This document shows, piece after piece, positions 4,774-13,950 of a stretch of DNA of 13,950 nt. The first letter of the stretch is position 1. Every line of letters starts with the position of its first letter. The translations under genes were made by a program, and so were the position numbers. Origin of the DNA: Thermoplasmata archaeon (GTDB lineage: Archaea > Thermoplasmatota > Thermoplasmata > Thermoplasmatales > Thermoplasmataceae); contig JAKARU010000012.1 in assembly GCA_021819225.1 (NCBI GenBank), positions 1 to 13,950 of the forward strand. The letters are read 5' to 3'. The notes under the pieces are model-generated. The model did no database searches. It was not told where the DNA came from and was given only the letters and a program-made list of their open reading frames with translations.

Positions 4774-6597
4774 TTATTCCTCGGGCTTTGAGGATGATAT
4801 AACCGGTATGGCTTCTTCAAGGTTAAGACCAATTTCGTCCTGTGAGAGTTTTCTTCCTATGCTTCTCTCGTAGAAGTCAATTATTGATCTCTTCTCTTCC
4901 ATTGTGTACTCCCTAAAGTACTTCTCCTTCTTCAGGTTCTTTCCAGTTCTCTCCTCATATGTTTTTGCCGGGATTGAATATTTCCTCTGGGTTGCATCTC
5001 TGTACAGTTCTGGAATTACGTTGAATGCACAGAAGGGAACTACTCTGCCGTCAGGCATGGCGTAATGTATATCACACCTTTCAACTCTGTCAACATCATA
5101 GGTGTAAGGATCCATGAAATGCATGAAGCCGACGAACATGCTCTTGTAATGGAAGGCCTTGAGACCATGATAATCTCCCTCGGTAAAGGCGTTGTATATC
5201 ATATCCTTGAGGCTGAAGTCCTTTGGAGCTTTCTCGTAATCCACGAATCTCTTCATATTCTTTAGAAGCTTTGCAAGTGAAGAAGCTTTTGAAAGCGTCT
5301 TTATGCTGGAGCCTTTAATCTCGTCAGATAGTTCTCCAATGTATTCGAACATTCCCCTGACATCTATGAACCTCGTTATCGGGGTTACCTTGTCGTCTTC
5401 TTTGAACAGATAGGTACCCATACCGCAGGCAAAGTGAATGGACAGCTTGTACATGTCCTTACCCTTGAGCTGTTCAACGAAGTTGGAAATCTTTGTCGTG
5501 GATGGAACTGTGAAGAAGTCTTCCCTTCCAATGAGACCATCTGTCTGCTGTTCTATTTTCTTGATGCATCCAGGTATGGTAACTCTCTGTTTCTCCCTCA
5601 TCCTGTCAGGCATTCTTCCTACAAGGCTCACCGGCTGGAAATTGACAGCCCTAACAGCATCTATGTTGTTAAGCCCAAACTTTATTATGTCACCAAGGTA
5701 CATATCGTTGATTCCACCTATAACTGTGGGAACAAGGACGACACCAAGTGGGGCATTCTTGTAGTTTTCAAGGGCGGCTGGAACTTCCCAGAAATTCTTA
5801 GGGTTTGATCTGGGCGTAGGGCCGTCAAAACTTGTGTATATAACATTTGATCCTGCCTCCCTGATCTTCTTCGGAAAGTCAGGATCGAATGCAGCCCTGA
5901 CACTGTTTGTGTTCAGCTGGATATGCTCGTAGCCTTCCTCTCTTGCTATTTTGATAACATCAAGTATGTCATCTCTGATTGTAGGCTCACCACCAGTTAT
6001 CTGAACTGCATTTGCGCCAACAGGCTTTTCGTTCCTCATTCTTCTGAGCATCATCCTGACCTGATCCTGGGATGGCTCATATATTGGCTCGTTCTCCTTT
6101 GCGTAGAAGAAACAGTACCAGCAAGACAGATCACAGCGGTTCGTTACAACCACGTTTCCCAATCCTGTATGTGACTTGTGCTTAACGCAAAGTCCACAGT
6201 GAGTTGGGCAAACAATCTTAGACTCCAGATAGGCCACATGGGGATTTAGTATCTTCACTCCTCCATCCTGCCATTTCTTAGCCTCTTCATACATTTCATA
6301 ATCTTCCCAGTATTTCTCTTTGGTGATTCCGTGCTCTGCACATTCCTTTATTAACTTGACTTCTCCACCGTTTTCATATACAATTGCGGGGATTCTCATC
6401 TGATCAAATTTTTCATCGTCGACACATATTGGGCAGAGACTTTCTGTCACTCTTATCAGGAGCATGTCATCATTCACAAGGTGTCCCATGCTCTGCACAA
6501 ACTCATCAACCGTCTTAAATGGCGCATTCTTGCTCAACTCGAAATCAGACGCAAATCTGATATCCGGGTATTTTTTCTTTTCCTCAATTGCTATCAT
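4774..6597 (-). CDS. tes: Tetraether lipid synthase (radical SAM, GDGT/caldarchaeol synthase)
   Basis: This membrane-associated radical SAM enzyme couples the phytanyl ends of two archaeol-type diether lipids by C-C bond formation, giving the membrane-spanning tetraethers that dominate Thermoplasmatales membranes. The 607 residues show the full cysteine set of the MJ0619/Tes family. A CPIC pair lies at 55-58 with C86 (rubredoxin-like iron site by family knowledge). CPTHCGLC follows at 130-137. The radical SAM cluster motif C-X3-C-X2-C is at C155, C159 and C162, followed by Tyr/Phe-rich residues. The SAM-binding GGEP is at 202-205, and further cysteines at 344, 391, 508 and 523 are candidates for the auxiliary clusters. 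The ATG at 6597 is preceded by GGTGAT (6605-6610) at 7-nt spacing. The gene stands alone, with gaps of 171 nt to pheT and 65 nt to the archease gene. Confidence 0.93.
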   Translation of the reverse strand: MIAIEEKKKYPDIRFASDFELSKNAPFKTVDEFVQSMGHLVNDDMLLIRVTESLCPICVDDEKFDQMRIPAIVYENGGEVKLIKECAEHGITKEKYWEDYEMYEEAKKWQDGGVKILNPHVAYLESKIVCPTHCGLCVKHKSHTGLGNVVVTNRCDLSCWYCFFYAKENEPIYEPSQDQVRMMLRRMRNEKPVGANAVQITGGEPTIRDDILDVIKIAREEGYEHIQLNTNSVRAAFDPDFPKKIREAGSNVIYTSFDGPTPRSNPKNFWEVPAALENYKNAPLGVVLVPTVIGGINDMYLGDIIKFGLNNIDAVRAVNFQPVSLVGRMPDRMREKQRVTIPGCIKKIEQQTDGLIGREDFFTVPSTTKISNFVEQLKGKDMYKLSIHFACGMGTYLFKEDDKVTPITRFIDVRGMFEYIGELSDEIKGSSIKTLSKASSLAKLLKNMKRFVDYEKAPKDFSLKDMIYNAFTEGDYHGLKAFHYKSMFVGFMHFMDPYTYDVDRVERCDIHYAMPDGRVVPFCAFNVIPELYRDATQRKYSIPAKTYEERTGKNLKKEKYFREYTMEEKRSIIDFYERSIGRKLSQDEIGLNLEEAIPVISSSKPEE

Positions 6598-6604
6598 TTA
6601 TTGA

Positions 6605-6644
6605 ATCACCTATTTCAAAATCATAGATTATAGTTAATTAAAAG
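6605..6644 (-). promoter_or_regulatory. tes promoter and ribosome binding site
   Basis: On the minus strand, CTTTTAATTAA (6634-6644) is a TATA-like element about 40 nt before the tes ATG. GGTGAT (6605-6610), complementary to the 3' end of archaeal 16S rRNA, lies 7 nt before it. Initiation about 25 nt after the box would give a leader of 15-20 nt that still includes the ribosome binding site. Confidence 0.5.
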
Positions 6645-6690
6645 TATTTTGTAGTTATTCTAACTAATAAATGCCAAATTTTAAATGAAT

Positions 6691-6701
6691 ATTGTTACAA
6701 T
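6691..6701. promoter_or_regulatory. Short perfect inverted repeat upstream of tes
   Basis: ATTGT-T-ACAAT, 11 bp with 5-bp arms, lies about 50 bp upstream of the tes TATA-like box in the 171-bp gap between pheT and tes. It could be a transcription-factor site, but such short A/T-rich palindromes also arise by chance. The rest of this gap shows no RNA gene or small reading frame that can be supported. Confidence 0.2.
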
Positions 6702-6768
6702 AGAAAATACAATAGCCAATTATTTCCGTCATTTAAGTTTCTATTTTGTTGTACCAATATATGATACT

Positions 6769-8358
6769 TTATTCATGTTTACTCTTTATGCATTTCAGAA
6801 GTTTTGAGAGGCTCAATTCAGCATAGGTTACAGGAAAATAAAATGTATATCTCGATATTACGCCAGGAGTTAATTCACCTATGTACCCTATGTTTTCTCC
6901 AGATAATTCAATGGTGCCGGATCTCCCTTCTATAAACTCTTCCCTGTTATCCCTAATTATCTCAAACCTGTTTTCAGTAAATGCCGAAAGGAATCTATCC
7001 AGATAGCCTTTTACTTCAGAATAATTTGCATGTCTTCCACATGTTGAAATGCCCAAAACCCTGTCCTGTATACCTCTGTTGAATACGTCTCCCACCTCGA
7101 ATATTTTCTGTGGAAACCCATATTGCATATTTCTCTGGTAAAATTCAAGGAATCCTCCAACAAGATCCTTTCTTAATTTTGAGTATTCCTCACTTTTAGC
7201 ATTAACTATGTCTAATGTTGAATCGCCATCTTCTTTTCTAAGTACAAAGTTGATGATCTCCTGGAAGCCAAGTTCAATCGAGACTTCCCTTGCCTTAGAG
7301 GTGAATAGATTCAGTACCTCGAAACTTCCAGTAAAATTTGAAGTGAGATCTTTTGCATTAATCCTGTTCAGTCCATAGGCCTTGATAAAATCTTCAGCAA
7401 TATCCTCGAAACCCATAACGTCTATCCTTTCGTCTGGAACAACAATCATGTTTGACCTGAAACTGTACCCCATTTTTTTCAGATTTTGTTTTACTTCCAT
7501 GGCACTAACTTCAATTCCCGCTATCTCCTGTATTTTCCCAGTTTGCAATGGATATTCGGTGTTCTTTAAATTCTTCAGTACATAACTTATGTCATTCCCA
7601 CCTGCAAATTCTATATTCCTACCCAACTTTCTAAAGTATCCAGTCGCAAGTCTCGTGCCCAGCATAAGGCCAGACATGCTTGGTGAAGTTACATCTACAA
7701 GTATGGATGTGGTCTTAGATGTAATTTTTGTCCTGCTGGAGTTGAACAAAGGTGGAATAGAAATTGGGCCAATGGAATCTTTTAGAGCACATATTTTTTT
7801 ATCATTTTCCCTTATTAACGCCAGTTTTCCGTACTGTATACCCTTATTGTGTTCATTTATTAGATGAGAGATTTCAGAATTCATTCCGTCATAGGTTTCA
7901 AATTGTTCACTAATGGAAATATTCTCATAGTCAAGGTCACCTCTGATACTCTCAAGATCGTGAACACCATATGCAAACAACTTTCTCTTTTTTCCGGCAC
8001 TTTCACTTAATTTATCAAGATAATCAACGGCATCATTTGAAATATATTTATTTTCCTTCTTTATTTTTACTTCAAAAACTGCTATATATGGTCTTATCTG
8101 TGGCTTATGATTTACGAGAATTCTATCTGTTCTTAAAATTCTCCCAATTCTGTTAGGCTTTCCCTCGAAAATATCCATTGATTTTATCAGGGACAATACT
8201 GAATAAAGATCAGGGCGATCAGGATTAAATTCTATCTTGACTTCGCCAGATTTTTCATAGCTAAACCCTATTACTCTTGAAAATTTGTTCAGTCTGGATT
8301 CCCACTCCATTCCCAGGTAATTCTTTAGAATATCCTCTTCTGTTCTGATTACGACCAA
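6769..8358 (-). CDS. pheT: Phenylalanyl-tRNA synthetase beta subunit, archaeal type
   Basis: This is the beta subunit of the (alpha-beta)2 class II enzyme that charges tRNA-Phe; it carries the editing and tRNA-binding modules. The 529 residues match the shorter archaeal/eukaryotic form, which lacks the bacterial EMAP-like N-terminus and the C-terminal RNP-like anticodon domain. In order it has the N-terminal VVIRTEEDILKNYLG segment, FNPDRPDLYS (44-53), a B3/B4-type editing region (about 120-240), a B5 domain (about 270-330, with VPDERIDVMGFEDIAED), and a catalytic-like class II domain to the end. The start is a TTG at 8358, supported by AAGGTGT just upstream and by family N-termini; the first Met would be residue 17. 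The gene begins 10 nt after the stop of the RHH regulator, so the two are almost certainly co-transcribed. The catalytic alpha subunit PheS is not in this window. Confidence 0.95.
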   Translation of the reverse strand: MVVIRTEEDILKNYLGMEWESRLNKFSRVIGFSYEKSGEVKIEFNPDRPDLYSVLSLIKSMDIFEGKPNRIGRILRTDRILVNHKPQIRPYIAVFEVKIKKENKYISNDAVDYLDKLSESAGKKRKLFAYGVHDLESIRGDLDYENISISEQFETYDGMNSEISHLINEHNKGIQYGKLALIRENDKKICALKDSIGPISIPPLFNSSRTKITSKTTSILVDVTSPSMSGLMLGTRLATGYFRKLGRNIEFAGGNDISYVLKNLKNTEYPLQTGKIQEIAGIEVSAMEVKQNLKKMGYSFRSNMIVVPDERIDVMGFEDIAEDFIKAYGLNRINAKDLTSNFTGSFEVLNLFTSKAREVSIELGFQEIINFVLRKEDGDSTLDIVNAKSEEYSKLRKDLVGGFLEFYQRNMQYGFPQKIFEVGDVFNRGIQDRVLGISTCGRHANYSEVKGYLDRFLSAFTENRFEIIRDNREEFIEGRSGTIELSGENIGYIGELTPGVISRYTFYFPVTYAELSLSKLLKCIKSKHE

Positions 8359-8368
8359 AATTTACACC

Positions 8369-8668
8369 TTAATCTTTTTTAATTGGATTTTGTGCCATGT
8401 ATTCCTTCAGAATTGTTCTTATCAGTTCTTCTATTGAAATGGCTTCTCCATTTTGAATCACAGAATTTAAATTTTCAACCATCCTGCTGGTTAATTTCAC
8501 CTGGACATTTTTCACATTGCTTTCTTGGTCATATTTTTCCAGGAATTCTTTAATCGCATCTCTGATGACTTCAGAAATAGTTTCGTATTTACTTATTTCC
8601 CTAATCTTCATAAGTCTGTCAAGGTCTTCCTCTGAAACTCGGATTGTTATTCTATATGGAACTGACAT
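8369..8668 (-). CDS. Ribbon-helix-helix DNA-binding protein with two RHH-like units
   Basis: A 99-residue protein from the ATG at 8668. Residues 5-46 form a CopG/Arc/NikR-like unit: strand YRITIRV, helix EEDLDRLMKIREI, then helix TISEVIRDAIKEFLEKY. Residues 53-92 look like a second unit: strand VQVKLTS, helix MVENLNSVIQNG, then helix SIEELIRTILKEYM. RHH proteins usually carry one unit and dimerise, so this chain may fold as a pseudo-dimer or build larger oligomers (inference). The frame extends to a TTG at 8692, but that codon lies only about 13 nt past the TATA-like box, upstream of the expected transcript start; the ATG also has GAAGGT nearby. It lies 10 nt before pheT, which suggests that it autoregulates the operon, but no operator has been demonstrated. 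The target is unknown. Confidence 0.8.
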   Translation of the reverse strand: MSVPYRITIRVSEEDLDRLMKIREISKYETISEVIRDAIKEFLEKYDQESNVKNVQVKLTSRMVENLNSVIQNGEAISIEELIRTILKEYMAQNPIKKD

Positions 8669-8704
8669 CTGAACCTTCCCAATAAGTGCCAATAATGTTT
8701 TTCA

Positions 8705-8719
8705 CTAATAAATCTTTTT
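8705..8719 (-). promoter_or_regulatory. TATA-like promoter of the RHH-pheT operon
   Basis: The minus strand reads AAAAAGATTTATTAG with its TATA-like core (ATTTATTAG) at 8705-8713, about 37-45 nt before the ATG at 8668. Initiation near 8680-8685 would give a leader of about 12-17 nt. This placement is the main reason for preferring the ATG over the upstream TTG as start of the RHH gene. Confidence 0.5.
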
Positions 8720-8842
8720 AGATTACTATTTCAGAAAATAACTAATTTCATCATTCGGTTCAACTTCTTCTTTTCATTATGCTCAATGTTGTATTGCGTT
8801 TATTCATTTTATGTGGAACGGTGCTTAAATGTATGATACCCT

Positions 8843-9144
8843 GTCATTGTCAAGCACGATCTGTCTTTTCCATATGAGCATTGCATTCACGGAGATGAGT
8901 TAGCCAGAGTATTTACACTGGCCTGCTATGTATTCTTTTGCCTGCAAGGGCTAAAACAGGAGTAGAATCTCATTGGTACGGTAGAAGAAAACAAAGAGTG
9001 GAATATCTACCATGATGGAAAATGGTACCAGATGACATAAAAGTCCTTGCAAAGGCAATTATGTTATCATGGTTGAGATCAGAATCGAAATTTGCAATAA
9101 TTAAAAGTAATCCTGTTCAGTTTACAAAGAGCCTTCACGATTGA
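8843..9144 (+). pseudogene. Decayed coding stretch, possibly the C-terminal end of an IS4/IS1634-like transposase
   Basis: No intact gene fits the gap between the RHH gene and aglB, but the plus strand retains protein-like stretches in two frames. From 8843 one frame reads through IHGDELARVFTLACYVFFCL to a TAG at 8963. After it the same frame continues with EENKEWNIYHDGKWYQMT to a TAA at 9038. The adjacent frame from 9031 then reads DDIKVLAKAIMLSWLRS to a TGA at 9142. The order resembles the end of IS4/IS1634-family transposases: a His/Glu-containing segment, a hydrophobic helix, then an EW..Y...W-type segment. Frameshift and stops show it is dead. No terminal inverted repeats or target duplication could be made out, and the start of the element is missing. 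The assignment is by pattern memory only. Confidence 0.38.
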
Positions 9145-9220
9145 AATTAAAGGGATTGAAAAAGTTATCCCACTGATCACCACGAAAGGATAGCAACAGT
9201 TGAATTCTAGTTAAACATTC

Positions 9221-9253
9221 TTATATGTAAATTGTATTAGCGTTTTCGGTAGT
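9221..9253 (+). promoter_or_regulatory. aglB promoter and weak ribosome binding site
   Basis: TTATATGTA (9221-9229) is a TATA-like box about 31-39 nt before the aglB ATG. It predicts a start near 9250 and a leader of about 10 nt. GGTAGT (9248-9253) is a weak GGTGAT-like site 6 nt before the ATG; it may fall at the very 5' end of the mRNA, so initiation may be nearly leaderless. Confidence 0.5.
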
Positions 9254-9259
9254 CGTACA

Positions 9260-12200
9260 ATGGAACTCCAAGAAATCAAATCTATTAACAGGTTGGAAAG
9301 GTGGTTAGGCAGAAACTGGGAGTTCGTGGGAATACTGATGCTGTTCTCATTATATATGTTCCTCGGGAATTTCTTTATGTGGGGACAGGCATTTCTTGAT
9401 GGTCTCGCGAACTTCTCTGGTGGGAGTGACCCTTACTTTAATTATATATTCATACAATATATTCTGGCCCATCACCAATCATTACTTTATACGTACAATT
9501 TGAATTATCCAATTGGTTCACATAATCCAAGAAACCCGTTTTTCCATTGGATGATTGTGTTTATATCAACAATTACCGCACCAATATTCGGTAGTGCTTC
9601 AAACGCAGCATACTATTCGTTCATGGAGTTTGACGCAGTATTCGGTGCCCTACTGATTATTCCCGTCTATCTACTTGGAAAGAGCGTCCTAGGCAAAAAA
9701 GCTGGAATGATTGGTGCCATTCTCTATACTCTGATGCCAAGCAATCTAACATCAGGTATTCTATCTGATGGTAGAATGCACACGCCTGAGCTCATATTCG
9801 CATTTTTCACTATATATTTCCTGGAACGCGCAGTGAAATTCCTTTCCAAGGATAGAATAATAACTGGTAGTCTGTTCAGGGTGAAGCAATATTATCCTGA
9901 TTTAATGGATTATATTAGAGAAAACAAGAAGGGATCTGTGTATGCTTTACTATCCGCAGCTTCCTTTGGTGCACTTGCGTTATCATGGCAGGGTTATGCA
10001 TATATTCTCGCCATAGTAGCCATTTATGTTGTTATACAGTTACTTGCAAATCTTTTCATGGGTAGAAATAATGGCTACATCTTATACATCAGCACCATAT
10101 TTGTATTCGTCTCCTTCGCGATGGCTTATTATTATTACTATGCAGCGGACAATACTCCATCTTTGTGGTTTATACCTCCGTTGATGATAGGAGTGGTAAT
10201 GATACTTATAAGTCTCCTCATATCTATATTCGGCAGGAAACCATGGATAATATCAGTCCCCGCTCTTCTCGTTTCAGTTTCAGTTGTTCTATTTGCAACT
10301 TATTACCTTACTCCCAACATATTCCACGAGATTATCTCTGGAGAAGGCTACTTCATTAAAACGCGTGTATACAGCACCATTGCGGAAGCTCAGGCACCAG
10401 CTCTAGGCCAGTATATTGCCGGGTTTGGTGTCGCTCAATTTATATTTGGAATAGGCGGCTTTGGGTATGTTATCTATAAATTCATGAAGGAAAAAACTGA
10501 TTCACTTCTTTTGCTTATCATATTCAGTGGTGTATCAATTTATATGAGTTTCTCTGCAGCAAGGTTCAATGTGACTGCAGCACCAAGCTATGCAATCATG
10601 GGTGGGGCTTTGATTTATTATTTTGCCTCGATCCTGAAGGTTGACAATGTCAATGCTTCAGCTAGCGCAAGGAAATCATTTAGGAAAGTTGGCGGTCTCA
10701 AGGGTAATATAAAATGGCTCCAGGCATTGTTTGTTCTTCTTCTTGTCTTTGCGCTCCTGGTTCCATCCGGGCTTGGCGTTGTGTCGACAGCGGTTCCTGC
10801 AAATTCCGCAGTGCCGATAAATCAGGAGATTTATAATGCTCTTCCTTCGTTCGCAAAGCCAGCAACTTTCCAGGAAAACCAGTCTGCCTATTTTGGAACT
10901 GTTGGTAGTTTTATCACAAACTCATCAAGTCCTCTCTCTGAATCCTTCACTTGGTTTTCCACGCAACAATCTAACTTACCTACTTCGGAGAAACCTGCAT
11001 ACGTTGATTGGTGGGATTATGGTTTTCAGGAATTGTACCAGGGTAAGCACCCAACAGTAGCAGATGATTTTCAGCAGGCTTATCAAATATCCGGACAGAT
11101 CTTACTTTCAACAAACCAGTCACAAATAATATCATTGATGACTTCAAGACTAATTCAGGCTGAATTTATCCAGAATTCCGGGCAATATACTCCGGCATTG
11201 AAGCAGGCAATGTCTCAATACTTGAGTAATAACGAGTTGTCTCTAATACAGCAGATATACAACAACCCTCATGAGTTTGTTCCGTGGATAATCGACAACT
11301 CATCAGTCTATGGGGTTTTCATTAAGAATATATCAAACCAAAATGCCTATTATGCACTTGTCAAAGGGCAGCTTTCCTCGAAGTTATCTCTCCCTGAGAT
11401 AGTAAATCTTTATCAGGCTGTCCAAAAGGCTACAGGATGGTCAATCCAATACATCCAGACTGATCATAATTTATTCCCATTGTCTGGTCTGGATACTGGT
11501 ATATTCTATGCACCAGCTTACTTGACAGATACTCCTTCATATACGACAGAGGGTGGCGGTGTTGTGCCATATGAGTATTACCAAATATATGCCGTGACTC
11601 CCAATGGAACATACCCCTTAAATCAAACTCCTACTAATGTAGTTCCCACAAATTACGAAATAACTTACACTCCTGCATTCTATAACACGACAATATACAG
11701 GGCGTTAGTCGGCTTACCTCCGACTGCAGTGGGTCAAAGTTCCGGTGTTCCTGGCTTAACATTTGGAACAAATCAGTATGAAATTCAACCTGCATGGAAT
11801 ATGAGTAATTTTGAAGTATGCTATGAGGGTGTCCCATATAATCCATACCAGAACGCCTCAGCACATCAAAACGCCTTCAAGATTATTCCCCTCCAGCAAG
11901 CCTACTCTTATGCAAAGGAGAAGAAGGGTACATCCGTTATATTCCCATCAGCAGCATCTATAATTCAGGGTTCTGATCCTATCCTTAGGTACTTCCCTGG
12001 AGCAGTCATCACTGGCCAGGTGAAATCACCAACTGGTGTTCCAATATCGGGTATAAGGGTCACTATTCTGGATCAATACGGGATACCTCATCAGACTGTA
12101 CTCACAAACAAATACGGCTATTACAATCTTTCAGGCCTCCCCGGAAATGATACACTTGTGTTTTCAGACGGTACCCTCAATGGAAGGACACTTTATGGGG

Positions 12201-13950
12201 CAAACATCCTTAATGCATTTGGTCTAAATATTTCAAGACAGCAGGCTGAGAGAAAGACTTTTGAACTCAATTATACCACTGGCCTTCCACAGTATTATGT
12301 GGTTAAAAATTATGTGATTTCAAATGTAACCTCCTCTGGCTTTGTTACTATAAACAGGCAACTCGGAGTCGGATCACATTCATATAATACTTCGAAGATC
12401 CTTAACGGAACTGTTCAGTTGAAGCGGATTTCAAACGGGCAGGAATACAATTTTACAATAAGGAATGGGCTTTATAATGCCTCAAACATTGGACCGGGTA
12501 ATTATTCTGTAAGCGTAATCACCTCCAACGGAACTGTATACAAAGCCATTCAGGATAATGTGTTAACACCTGGATCACCATTAATTTACGACATAAAGGT
12601 TCCACTAAATCTGGTGCAGACCAGAGTTATAATGGATGGAATTCCTGTCAAGGATGCCCAGATTATAGTTGATGATAAAATTTATTACACTAATAGTTCA
12701 GGATTTTCATATGTATATACAAATTCTGGAAATTACTCAATCTATGCCAAAGATGGAAATAGTGTGAGTACAATTTCCACAATTACCTTCCCGTCACTGG
12801 GCCAGAACAGAACATTGAATCTTACGTTGGTTCCTGGAGCAAATGTATCCATAAATGTAAAGAATTATGGTAGCAATACCTTAAATATTTACAGCAATGG
12901 GATCTTGTCCAATGCCGTAACTTTGAAGAAGAACGGAAATTCTTATAGTGGAGTAATAAACACCGGATTTTATACTGTTTATGACACATACCATAATAAC
13001 ACAGTATTTGATGAAATAAACGTTTATCAGAACAGTTCATTCAATTTAGTCGCATATAGCTCATCACACGTGTATGTCAGTCCATATGGTGCAAATTTAT
13101 CTTCATTTTCAGGGAACCTGTATATATCCCATTCTGATGTAGTCATAAATCAAGCAATTTCCGGCTCACAGAAATTATCATTTAATTTACCTTCAAATTT
13201 CTCTTACAATTTCTATATTCAGGGAGTAAAGGTTGGTGTTAATTACTATTCTTCTCAAACTTACAATGTTGCTAATGGAGCCAGGCTAACAATGCCTATG
13301 TATAAGGGGACTGCCATTTCAGTAGGAGTTTACAATCCTTCAGTGGCTGGAATCTTCTCATCAAGTTCAGCGGTATCCGGAGGAGTAGTATTTCTTTCCC
13401 AATTTGGATCTGAATTCGCTGCCTCCTCAATTTCATCTAATGGATATGCAACTTTCATAATCAATTCGACTCAATCAGACATTACTGCAAGGGCTTTTTC
13501 AGAAGGGTTCTCGTCAAATACCACGATTATCAGCAGGAATTCCCAGCTACCCTTGAATATTGTGAAGACCAGGGTTACAATCAATTTCATATCAATCAAT
13601 GGTGGAGCCCCACTCGACGGGACACTCAATTTGTCATCGAGCAATAGTTTTAGAGAGAGTATTATAAATGGAACCTCTTCATTCACTATCCCTGTCGGAA
13701 CTTATTATATGAACACTGAAGGTGGTAACCAGATTGTCCTGGATAATCAAAGCCTTATAACAATTAGTTCGTATCAGAGTACTTTCAATGTTACCTTCAC
13801 GAGCAGGATTCACGTAGCTTTTATCGGGGCTATAAACGCATCACTTTTCAACTATACTTCAAGTTACACAACCGCAATCTCAAACATATCTGAGGTCGCC
13901 CCCGGTAATTATGTTCTGTATGCTTTGAATGAACTTGGGCAGGCAGATCG
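9260..13950 (+). CDS. aglB: AglB/STT3-type oligosaccharyltransferase with a giant C-terminal beta-domain extension (3' end beyond window)
   Basis: AglB is the membrane catalytic subunit that moves a lipid-linked glycan onto Asn of N-X-S/T sequons outside the cell. The frame is open for 1563 codons with no stop. Residues 21-510 hold about 13 membrane segments. The first acidic motif is GGSDPYFNY with Asp57. The second-loop region is SDGRMHTPE (169-177). The TIxE motif is STIAEAQAP with Glu376. After the last helix (about 487-510) comes the soluble domain with WWDYG at 584-588, followed by HPTVADDFQQAY. From about residue 916 the chain departs from ordinary AglB. A carboxypeptidase-regulatory-like domain (GQVKSPTGVPISGIRVTI, then GYYNLSGLPG) is followed by further Ig-like beta segments near 1112-1195 and 1434-1563. 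About 37 N-X-S/T sequons lie downstream of WWDYG. Known AglB proteins are about 600-1000 residues. The extension should be on the outer face; a role in surface coating or substrate capture is inference. Confidence 0.94.
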   Translation, partial: MELQEIKSINRLERWLGRNWEFVGILMLFSLYMFLGNFFMWGQAFLDGLANFSGGSDPYFNYIFIQYILAHHQSLLYTYNLNYPIGSHNPRNPFFHWMIVFISTITAPIFGSASNAAYYSFMEFDAVFGALLIIPVYLLGKSVLGKKAGMIGAILYTLMPSNLTSGILSDGRMHTPELIFAFFTIYFLERAVKFLSKDRIITGSLFRVKQYYPDLMDYIRENKKGSVYALLSAASFGALALSWQGYAYILAIVAIYVVIQLLANLFMGRNNGYILYISTIFVFVSFAMAYYYYYAADNTPSLWFIPPLMIGVVMILISLLISIFGRKPWIISVPALLVSVSVVLFATYYLTPNIFHEIISGEGYFIKTRVYSTIAEAQAPALGQYIAGFGVAQFIFGIGGFGYVIYKFMKEKTDSLLLLIIFSGVSIYMSFSAARFNVTAAPSYAIMGGALIYYFASILKVDNVNASASARKSFRKVGGLKGNIKWLQALFVLLLVFALLVPSGLGVVSTAVPANSAVPINQEIYNALPSFAKPATFQENQSAYFGTVGSFITNSSSPLSESFTWFSTQQSNLPTSEKPAYVDWWDYGFQELYQGKHPTVADDFQQAYQISGQILLSTNQSQIISLMTSRLIQAEFIQNSGQYTPALKQAMSQYLSNNELSLIQQIYNNPHEFVPWIIDNSSVYGVFIKNISNQNAYYALVKGQLSSKLSLPEIVNLYQAVQKATGWSIQYIQTDHNLFPLSGLDTGIFYAPAYLTDTPSYTTEGGGVVPYEYYQIYAVTPNGTYPLNQTPTNVVPTNYEITYTPAFYNTTIYRALVGLPPTAVGQSSGVPGLTFGTNQYEIQPAWNMSNFEVCYEGVPYNPYQNASAHQNAFKIIPLQQAYSYAKEKKGTSVIFPSAASIIQGSDPILRYFPGAVITGQVKSPTGVPISGIRVTILDQYGIPHQTVLTNKYGYYNLSGLPGNDTLVFSDGTLNGRTLYGANILNAFGLNISRQQAERKTFELNYTTGLPQYYVVKNYVISNVTSSGFVTINRQLGVGSHSYNTSKILNGTVQLKRISNGQEYNFTIRNGLYNASNIGPGNYSVSVITSNGTVYKAIQDNVLTPGSPLIYDIKVPLNLVQTRVIMDGIPVKDAQIIVDDKIYYTNSSGFSYVYTNSGNYSIYAKDGNSVSTISTITFPSLGQNRTLNLTLVPGANVSINVKNYGSNTLNIYSNGILSNAVTLKKNGNSYSGVINTGFYTVYDTYHNNTVFDEINVYQNSSFNLVAYSSSHVYVSPYGANLSSFSGNLYISHSDVVINQAISGSQKLSFNLPSNFSYNFYIQGVKVGVNYYSSQTYNVANGARLTMPMYKGTAISVGVYNPSVAGIFSSSSAVSGGVVFLSQFGSEFAASSISSNGYATFIINSTQSDITARAFSEGFSSNTTIISRNSQLPLNIVKTRVTINFISINGGAPLDGTLNLSSSNSFRESIINGTSSFTIPVGTYYMNTEGGNQIVLDNQSLITISSYQSTFNVTFTSRIHVAFIGAINASLFNYTSSYTTAISNISEVAPGNYVLYALNELGQAD

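Follow-up and report, generated by a model that had tools for sequence, protein, structure and literature searches.

A long, doubly anchored AglB with a predicted beta-domain ladder and a conserved partner gene in the class Thermoplasmata

The window, by which we mean the whole 13,950-nt stretch of DNA that was analysed, ends inside the gene for the archaeal oligosaccharyltransferase AglB. An ATG-initiated aglB frame occupies 9260-13948 on the plus strand (1563 codons) and is open up to the window edge; the first-pass annotation had followed it unbroken from the STT3 core through the WWDYG motif over at least 1563 codons, and that reading stands. In a matching genome the frame runs on past the window to a stop ending at coordinate 15595, giving a protein of 2111 aa, and a partner gene overlaps the stop (Table 1). 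Window and matching genome differ at five of the 9336 bases compared (8026, 12709, 13945, 13946 and 13950), and the only resulting protein change within the window is D for N at residue 1563. Three of the five differences crowd into the last six bases of the window (13945-13950), as at a contig end. Elsewhere in the window, the minus strand carries a gene for the tetraether lipid synthase Tes at 4774-6597 (688 bits against a cut-off of 450).

Table 1. Features of aglB and its partner gene, in window coordinates continued into the matching genome
Feature	Residues	Position	Strand	Basis or remark
STT3/AglB N-terminal multi-spanning membrane core	1-515	9260..10804	+	TIGR04154, PF02516, hydropathy, GGSDPYF and EL5 EAQ
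Catalytic-type C-terminal globular part (central core and insertion)	516-904	10805..11971	+	weak match to 3vgp/3vu0
WWDYG motif	584-588	11009..11023	+	sequence
First prealbumin-like (CarboxypepD_reg) domain	917-990	12008..12229	+	PF13620
Extension, a predicted ladder of prealbumin/Ig-like beta domains	991 on	12230..13950, continuing to ~15511	+	AlphaFold, Pfam
C-terminal helix and basic tail KGRKVR of AglB		~15512-15592		hydropathy, AlphaFold model; beyond window (locus L002)
GGGGAGG, ribosome-binding-type sequence		15577-15583		within the 3' aglB codons for helix and tail; beyond window
Partner gene	274 aa	15592-16416 (L002 6200-7024, minus)		overlaps aglB stop; beyond window

In archaeal N-glycosylation, AglB is described as a single-subunit enzyme that ends near 900-1,000 residues. 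The window protein matches the archaeal STT3 model TIGR04154 over residues 25-633 (E = 1.1e-46), with a score of 159.6 bits that lies below the curated cut-off of 450 for the archaeosortase-associated AglB subfamily. PF02516 scores 28.8 bits, over its cut-off of 24.5; we call this match marginal, because the Pfam scan of the AglB protein itself at E 0.1 left the family out. The first DXD-type motif (GGSDPYF) and the EL5 Glu (EAQ) are both present. The second diacidic motif, of the DHD or DHH type, is DHD in several other families and SDGRMH in the window's family, f1; the SDGRMH site of the window protein falls in residues 164-182 (nt 9749-9805). The globular part weakly matches the solved AglB domains 3vgp and 3vu0, and PF22627 and PF21436 fall under their cut-offs in the Pfam scan. 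PF13620 is well over its own (50.8 bits against 32.3; whole-protein E = 2.2e-13), with its best stretch at residues 917-969. By these motifs and profile matches, the window AglB is a catalytic-type oligosaccharyltransferase with an STT3 core, WWDYG and a canonical AglB end that reaches to about residue 990. AglB-L of Archaeoglobus fulgidus has 499 membrane and 369 globular residues (PMC3703281, partial text); the window protein shares with it the membrane core, the first DXD-type motif, the EL5 Glu, WWDYG and the central core, but it is longer by about 1,100 residues, has a second membrane anchor and is coupled to a partner gene.

TIGR04154 is 831 positions long, and its position 825 aligns to residue 990 of a relative (G104). 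Identity to the window protein across the class is 0.45-0.57 at residues 901-1000 and 0.18-0.36 in later blocks. Because the model reaches residue 990 and conservation drops at about residue 1000, we place the true start of the extension at about nt 12230. The first-pass annotation had placed it at 12002; on these alignments the domain at 12008-12229 lies within the canonical AglB length and is counted with the canonical end.

So bounded, the extension spans about 1,120 residues (991-2111), its own membrane anchor included, where the first-pass annotation had allowed for at least about 650. Its description of a secreted-looking module, patterned as beta strands, rich in Ser/Thr/Asn/Tyr and joined to a catalytic subunit, agrees with the full protein. 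Hydropathy places no membrane segment between residues 514 and 2079 and one at 2079-2110, so that the module is free of membrane segments up to the edge, as had been noted, but has a second anchor past it. The AlphaFold model of residues 912-2111 of a relative (L033, 62% identical to the window AglB over the modelled stretch) is all beta with a C-terminal helix and has a mean pLDDT of 82.7; its pTM is 0.47, and the arrangement of the domains is not readable from it. Pfam families of the prealbumin/Ig-like kind were found in 23 ladder stretches scanned, and a repeat model built from the ladder gives 2 to 8 units per long protein, which does not settle the number of domains. These models predict that the outer face of the protein is a ladder of some dozen prealbumin/Ig-like domains with a second membrane anchor at its end. 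Foldseek searches with the ladder and with the partner returned generic beta-sandwich chains; NOMO is not among the best 50 matches listed for the ladder, which excludes nothing.

In the partner protein a signal sequence is combined with two predicted beta domains, a single helix and a basic tail; its AlphaFold model is weak (mean pLDDT 66.3). CARDB (PF07705) matches 16 of 20 members of the partner family, the window's own partner being without a match at E 0.01. Of 61 genomes, 59 from the class and two from family f36, 57 have a recognised member of the partner family beside aglB. The four exceptions are G207, split over contigs; G195, where the aglB match lies at the very start of a contig; G220, where a script found the tail of the partner family in a 256-aa ORF at -4; and G211. 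Among 25 loci, 16 have an exact 4-nt ATGA overlap between aglB and partner and two, the representatives of f5 and f9, show no downstream partner; nor does any appear beside the long forms of f35, f38, f39, f42, f45 and f46, for each of which one or two loci were read. The last aglB codons contain the ribosome-binding-type sequence, which is GGGGGTG in methanogens.

The cytoplasmic tail is, in sequence comparison, the most conserved part of the partner. A PKW(K/R) motif occurs in the tail of all 14 partners of families f1-f3, and pairwise identity across 13 Methanomethylophilaceae loci is 0.86 in the tail but falls to 0.37 for the ectodomain and 0.35 for the membrane helix, with the tail codons varying synonymously. 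Other arguments were set aside. Conservation of the C-terminal tail of AglB was dropped as a sign of cytoplasmic contact, since the conserved codons contain the partner's ribosome-binding-type sequence. The AglB proteins of f35, f39 and f46 have a CARDB-plus-helix end (2.6e-9, 6.8e-14 and 1.9e-4), but a gene-fusion argument was not built on them because other CARDB proteins of the phylum score equally well. Kinship of partner and ladder by profile comparison (48 columns, 91% probability, 8% identity) was judged too weak.

Of the 117 genomes in the window's GTDB order, 109 have a TIGR04154 match at E 0.001; frames of at least 1,900 aa are found in 86 of these 109, and the long frame is no rarity there. 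One of the 23 shorter frames, in L072 (G042, genus g2), is a 1442-aa form that keeps both the C-terminal helix and the partner gene; the three g2 genomes (G041-G043) have AglB frames of 1433-1454 aa. Another of the 23, in L073, is a frame broken into two pieces. Across the phylum, TIGR04154 has a match at 1e-12 in 137 of the 140 genomes that are at least 90% complete. Frames of at least 1,800 aa are found in 56 of 59 genomes of the window's own class, Thermoplasmata; families f42 and f45 reach 2,800-3,316 aa in 26 of 34 genomes, and AglB in f35, f36, f38, f39, f46 and f47 is mostly 2,337-2,744 aa. Medians are about 1,190 aa in f34, about 1,170 aa in f48 and 1,410 aa in f41, so that AglB in the phylum, cut frames aside, ranges from about 930 to 3,316 aa. 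The short forms read (f33, f34, f41, f44, f48, f49 and f50) have no C-terminal helix. In a quick, midpoint-rooted tree of AglB residues 1-1000, the long forms part from seven short-form rows with support 90, a topology that fits a single origin of the long form. The fusion to a large outer module, which the first-pass annotation had called unusual, is thus normal for the class Thermoplasmata and for much of the phylum.

A joining of two genes near 12000 through a faulty assembly or base call, which the first-pass annotation had considered, is excluded: the few differences between window and matching genome, three of which sit at the window edge, include none near 12000, and the uninterrupted long frame recurs in independent genomes of the order, the class and the phylum. 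The extension is fused to AglB, rather than encoded as a separate protein, in nearly all relatives read. The exceptions are L073 (G069), where 5387-11729 holds AglB as two overlapping frames of 1232 and 893 aa, and L111 (G316), where a 1603-aa AglB frame is followed after a gap of 245 nt by a 1506-aa frame with a terminal membrane helix; either split may be a sequencing error or a real change.

Several further relatives vary the pattern. In L100 and L101 (f42/f45) the frame is about 3,200 aa long, WWDYG lies near residue 955 and the protein has a C-terminal helix; the gene downstream of aglB in both is unrelated to the partner. Two strong STT3 matches (1590 and 2026 aa) occur on contigs C32 and C20 of G058, through duplication or a mixed bin. 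Among the relatives read, only L077 (f17) and L097 (f36) have an AglB with a PGF-type, sorting-like end, made up of PGF, a hydrophobic stretch and a basic tail. In the rarity of such ends, the AglB proteins differ from modules of S-layers, pilins and adhesins (SlaB, SpaA, teneurin TTR). We take these ends to resemble the PGF-CTERM archaeosortase signal; NCBIfam gives a sub-threshold Loki-CTERM for L077 (17.2 against 19.9 bits) and no sorting-signal match for the end of L097. Judged by these sequences, the anchor of the two proteins may be processed.

The window AglB has 55 sequons, against 26.5 in shuffled and 34 in reversed sequence, and the sum over 24 class representatives is 1003, against 486 and 541. 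Among the three roles that the first-pass annotation had proposed for the extension, that of a glycoprotein is supported by this enrichment but not proven; the other two, tethering of the enzyme in the coat and presentation of acceptors, may also apply. Enrichment is 2.29 in the canonical outer part, 2.3 in the partner and 2.06 in the ladder. Because the other outer parts are as enriched as the ladder, we take sequons to mark exposure, and sequon density was dropped as evidence of a role in the cell coat. Little or no enrichment (z 0.1 to 2.2) is seen in five of the 24 representatives (f8, f14, f21, f29 and f32), although their WWDYG is intact.

A coat role is nevertheless the main rival of the scaffold reading given below and comes next to it in likelihood, though less probable than not: glycosylated, doubly anchored ladders would be a major block of an unordered layer that replaces the S-layer, and the enzyme would sit in it. 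C. divulgatum and O. meridianum, two cultivated members of the order, are described with an unordered layer of about 20 nm and unidentified make-up (PMC12448462, partial text), and Methanomethylophilus alvi, in whose family the ladder is kept, is described without wall or S-layer (PMC10673518, partial text). S-layer SlaB, pilins and teneurin are among the single-domain structural matches listed for the ladder, and ladder sequons stand at twice the shuffled number in the window and in the 24-representative sum, although, as stated, this enrichment is neither specific to the ladder nor general. The STT3 subunit PTO0786 is one of 30 proteins found in three of three P. torridus culture-filtrate samples, but the same list has thermosome, EF-1alpha and a ribosomal protein (PMC8345856, partial text), so lysis is a possible source. 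For other relatives from mine drainage, both surface layers and putative genes for S-layers are reported (PMC3750248, partial text), so that absence of an S-layer is not general.

A separate line of evidence comes from family f10, which we infer to be the methanogen family Methanomethylophilaceae: McrA matches in 11 of 11 f10 genomes tested, over its cut-off in 10, and the named relatives are records of Candidatus Methanoplasma and Methanomassiliicoccaceae. Both genomes of genus g76 in this family have an intact WWDYG. In the other 15 (loci L098, L099, L114-L121 and L125-L129) the AglB-like protein is decayed at its motifs: none has an intact WWDYG, the acidic pair of the second motif is replaced in all 15, the Asp of the first motif is lost in 13 and the EL5 Glu in 14. 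These 15 rows form one clade beside g76 (support 100, branch length 1.74). The proteins retain ladder and anchor, and the partner adjoins the motif-less AglB in all 15 genomes. WWD is found in none of 52 database relatives of the f10 protein, which may overlap with the f10 genomes counted, and 47 of the 52 exceed 1,780 aa. At 1e-12, TIGR04154 matches just once in each of 22 f10 genomes, and G199 has two matches at 0.001; PF02516 matches 24 of 61 f10 genomes, once each, and is too insensitive there to exclude a second, diverged copy. On this pattern of motif loss, the f10 protein is likely a pseudo-oligosaccharyltransferase.

The Methanomethylophilaceae protein could instead be a diverged transferase with another donor or acceptor, in which case retention of the ladder would say nothing about a non-catalytic role. 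Its frames are long and intact, the first-motif Asp is kept in G235 and G220, an aligned Glu stands at the EL5 position in G130, and WIDY(A/S) is kept in three of the 15 genomes, all of genus g71 (G203, G217 and G220). We consider this quite improbable in view of the lack of an intact WWDYG and of the second acidic pair in all 15 and the length of the branch. Sequons bear on it from both sides: single z values run from -1.0 to 2.5, the highest being 2.5 in G220 and 2.2 in G199, but the summed f10 ectodomains (222 observed, 194 shuffled, 197 reversed) and those of 47 database relatives (871, 765 and 860) are near the shuffled numbers. Enrichment is weak or absent also in g76, whose motifs are intact. 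Glycosyltransferase genes tend to be fewer in host-associated Methanomassiliicoccales than in their free-living relatives (PMC9723798, partial text).

The same family bears on whether the ladder serves catalysis only, keeping acceptors near the active site in the manner of an expanded P1/P2 set of AglB-L. The ladder is fused directly behind the canonical C-terminal domain, of which IS, P1 and P2 are the known add-ons (PMC3703281, partial text), but the motif-decayed lineage keeps a full-length ladder, and we regard an exclusively acceptor-handling role as unlikely. That the ladder has outlasted the decay of these motifs suggests that it has work beyond serving catalysis; whatever ladder and partner do is probably independent of glycan transfer.

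The reading that we rate highest, at a probability of about 0.4, is that ladder and partner are a scaffold for secreted proteins, built onto the oligosaccharyltransferase and comparable to NOMO and TRAP of eukaryotes. NOMO consists of 12 prealbumin-like domains and one C-terminal membrane helix and is a subunit of the BOS complex at the multipass translocon of the endoplasmic reticulum. TRAP, beside the eukaryotic translocon, has Ig-like domains and a cytoplasmic tail that touches the ribosome. The tail of TRAP alpha binds the ribosome (PMC11186639, partial text). The AglB ladder, with its predicted tandem prealbumin-like domains outside the cytoplasm and its C-terminal membrane helix, has the architecture of NOMO, and a ladder profile searched against the PDB finds NOMO2 best (1.1e-23 over the whole chain, against 6.4e-9 for the runner-up). 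Taken singly, no NOMO stretch does better than 2.6e-8, and the matches are out of order: NOMO 130-291 and 270-467 match ladder positions 212-345 and 158-348, and NOMO 821-952 and 963-1091 match 488-623 and 213-328. NOMO, unlike the ladder, is not fused to STT3, and it may lead the list merely for want of other solved chains with tandem domains of this widespread family. The partner resembles TRAP alpha/beta in having an Ig-like outer domain, one helix and a basic cytoplasmic tail; this is a likeness of workings, the partner family having a CARDB-type domain, and a search of the family for a relationship to TRAP found none.

We favour the scaffold because of the best match to NOMO, the constrained tail of the partner, the double anchoring and the variable length of the ladder, which changes while the anchor stays (as in the 1442-aa form), as for a spacer. 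In such an assembly, ladder and partner would form a membrane scaffold where surface proteins leave the Sec channel, and the conserved tail of the partner would keep it close to the ribosome or SecY. Surface proteins coming out of the channel would be received or spaced by the ladder, with the fused STT3 adding glycans both to them and to the ladder; Methanomethylophilaceae would have only the scaffold function left. The scaffold and coat readings are compatible and do not exclude each other. A tentative wider proposal, resting on the same analogy, is that Thermoplasmatota, by fusing their oligosaccharyltransferase to a doubly anchored, NOMO-like ladder and gaining a partner with a tail, have a one-operon counterpart of the oligosaccharyltransferase, NOMO and TRAP set at the eukaryotic translocon, and that Methanomethylophilaceae may have lost N-glycosylation and kept the pseudo-oligosaccharyltransferase as a scaffold.

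C. divulgatum (PMC5155288) and the mine-drainage relatives (PMC3750248) have been reported with AglB genes, and the available parts of both papers do not remark on their size. Among the titles and starts of abstracts listed from the open-access literature, none gives an account of a long AglB, of the partner or of a motif-less AglB. Named relatives of the protein include some annotated as 'hypothetical protein', 'carboxypeptidase regulatory-like domain-containing protein' or 'glycosyltransferase family 39 protein', so that public annotation conceals the long form. Much of the phylum departs from the picture of a single-subunit enzyme, with an AglB of up to 3.3 kaa and a conserved candidate accessory subunit, and one family seems, by its motifs, to have lost the enzyme activity but kept the protein. 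If the scaffold reading is true, the two genes would offer an archaeal system for studying the coupling of oligosaccharyltransferase and translocon; if the coat reading is true, they would name a component of the unidentified protein layer of acidophiles that lack an S-layer.
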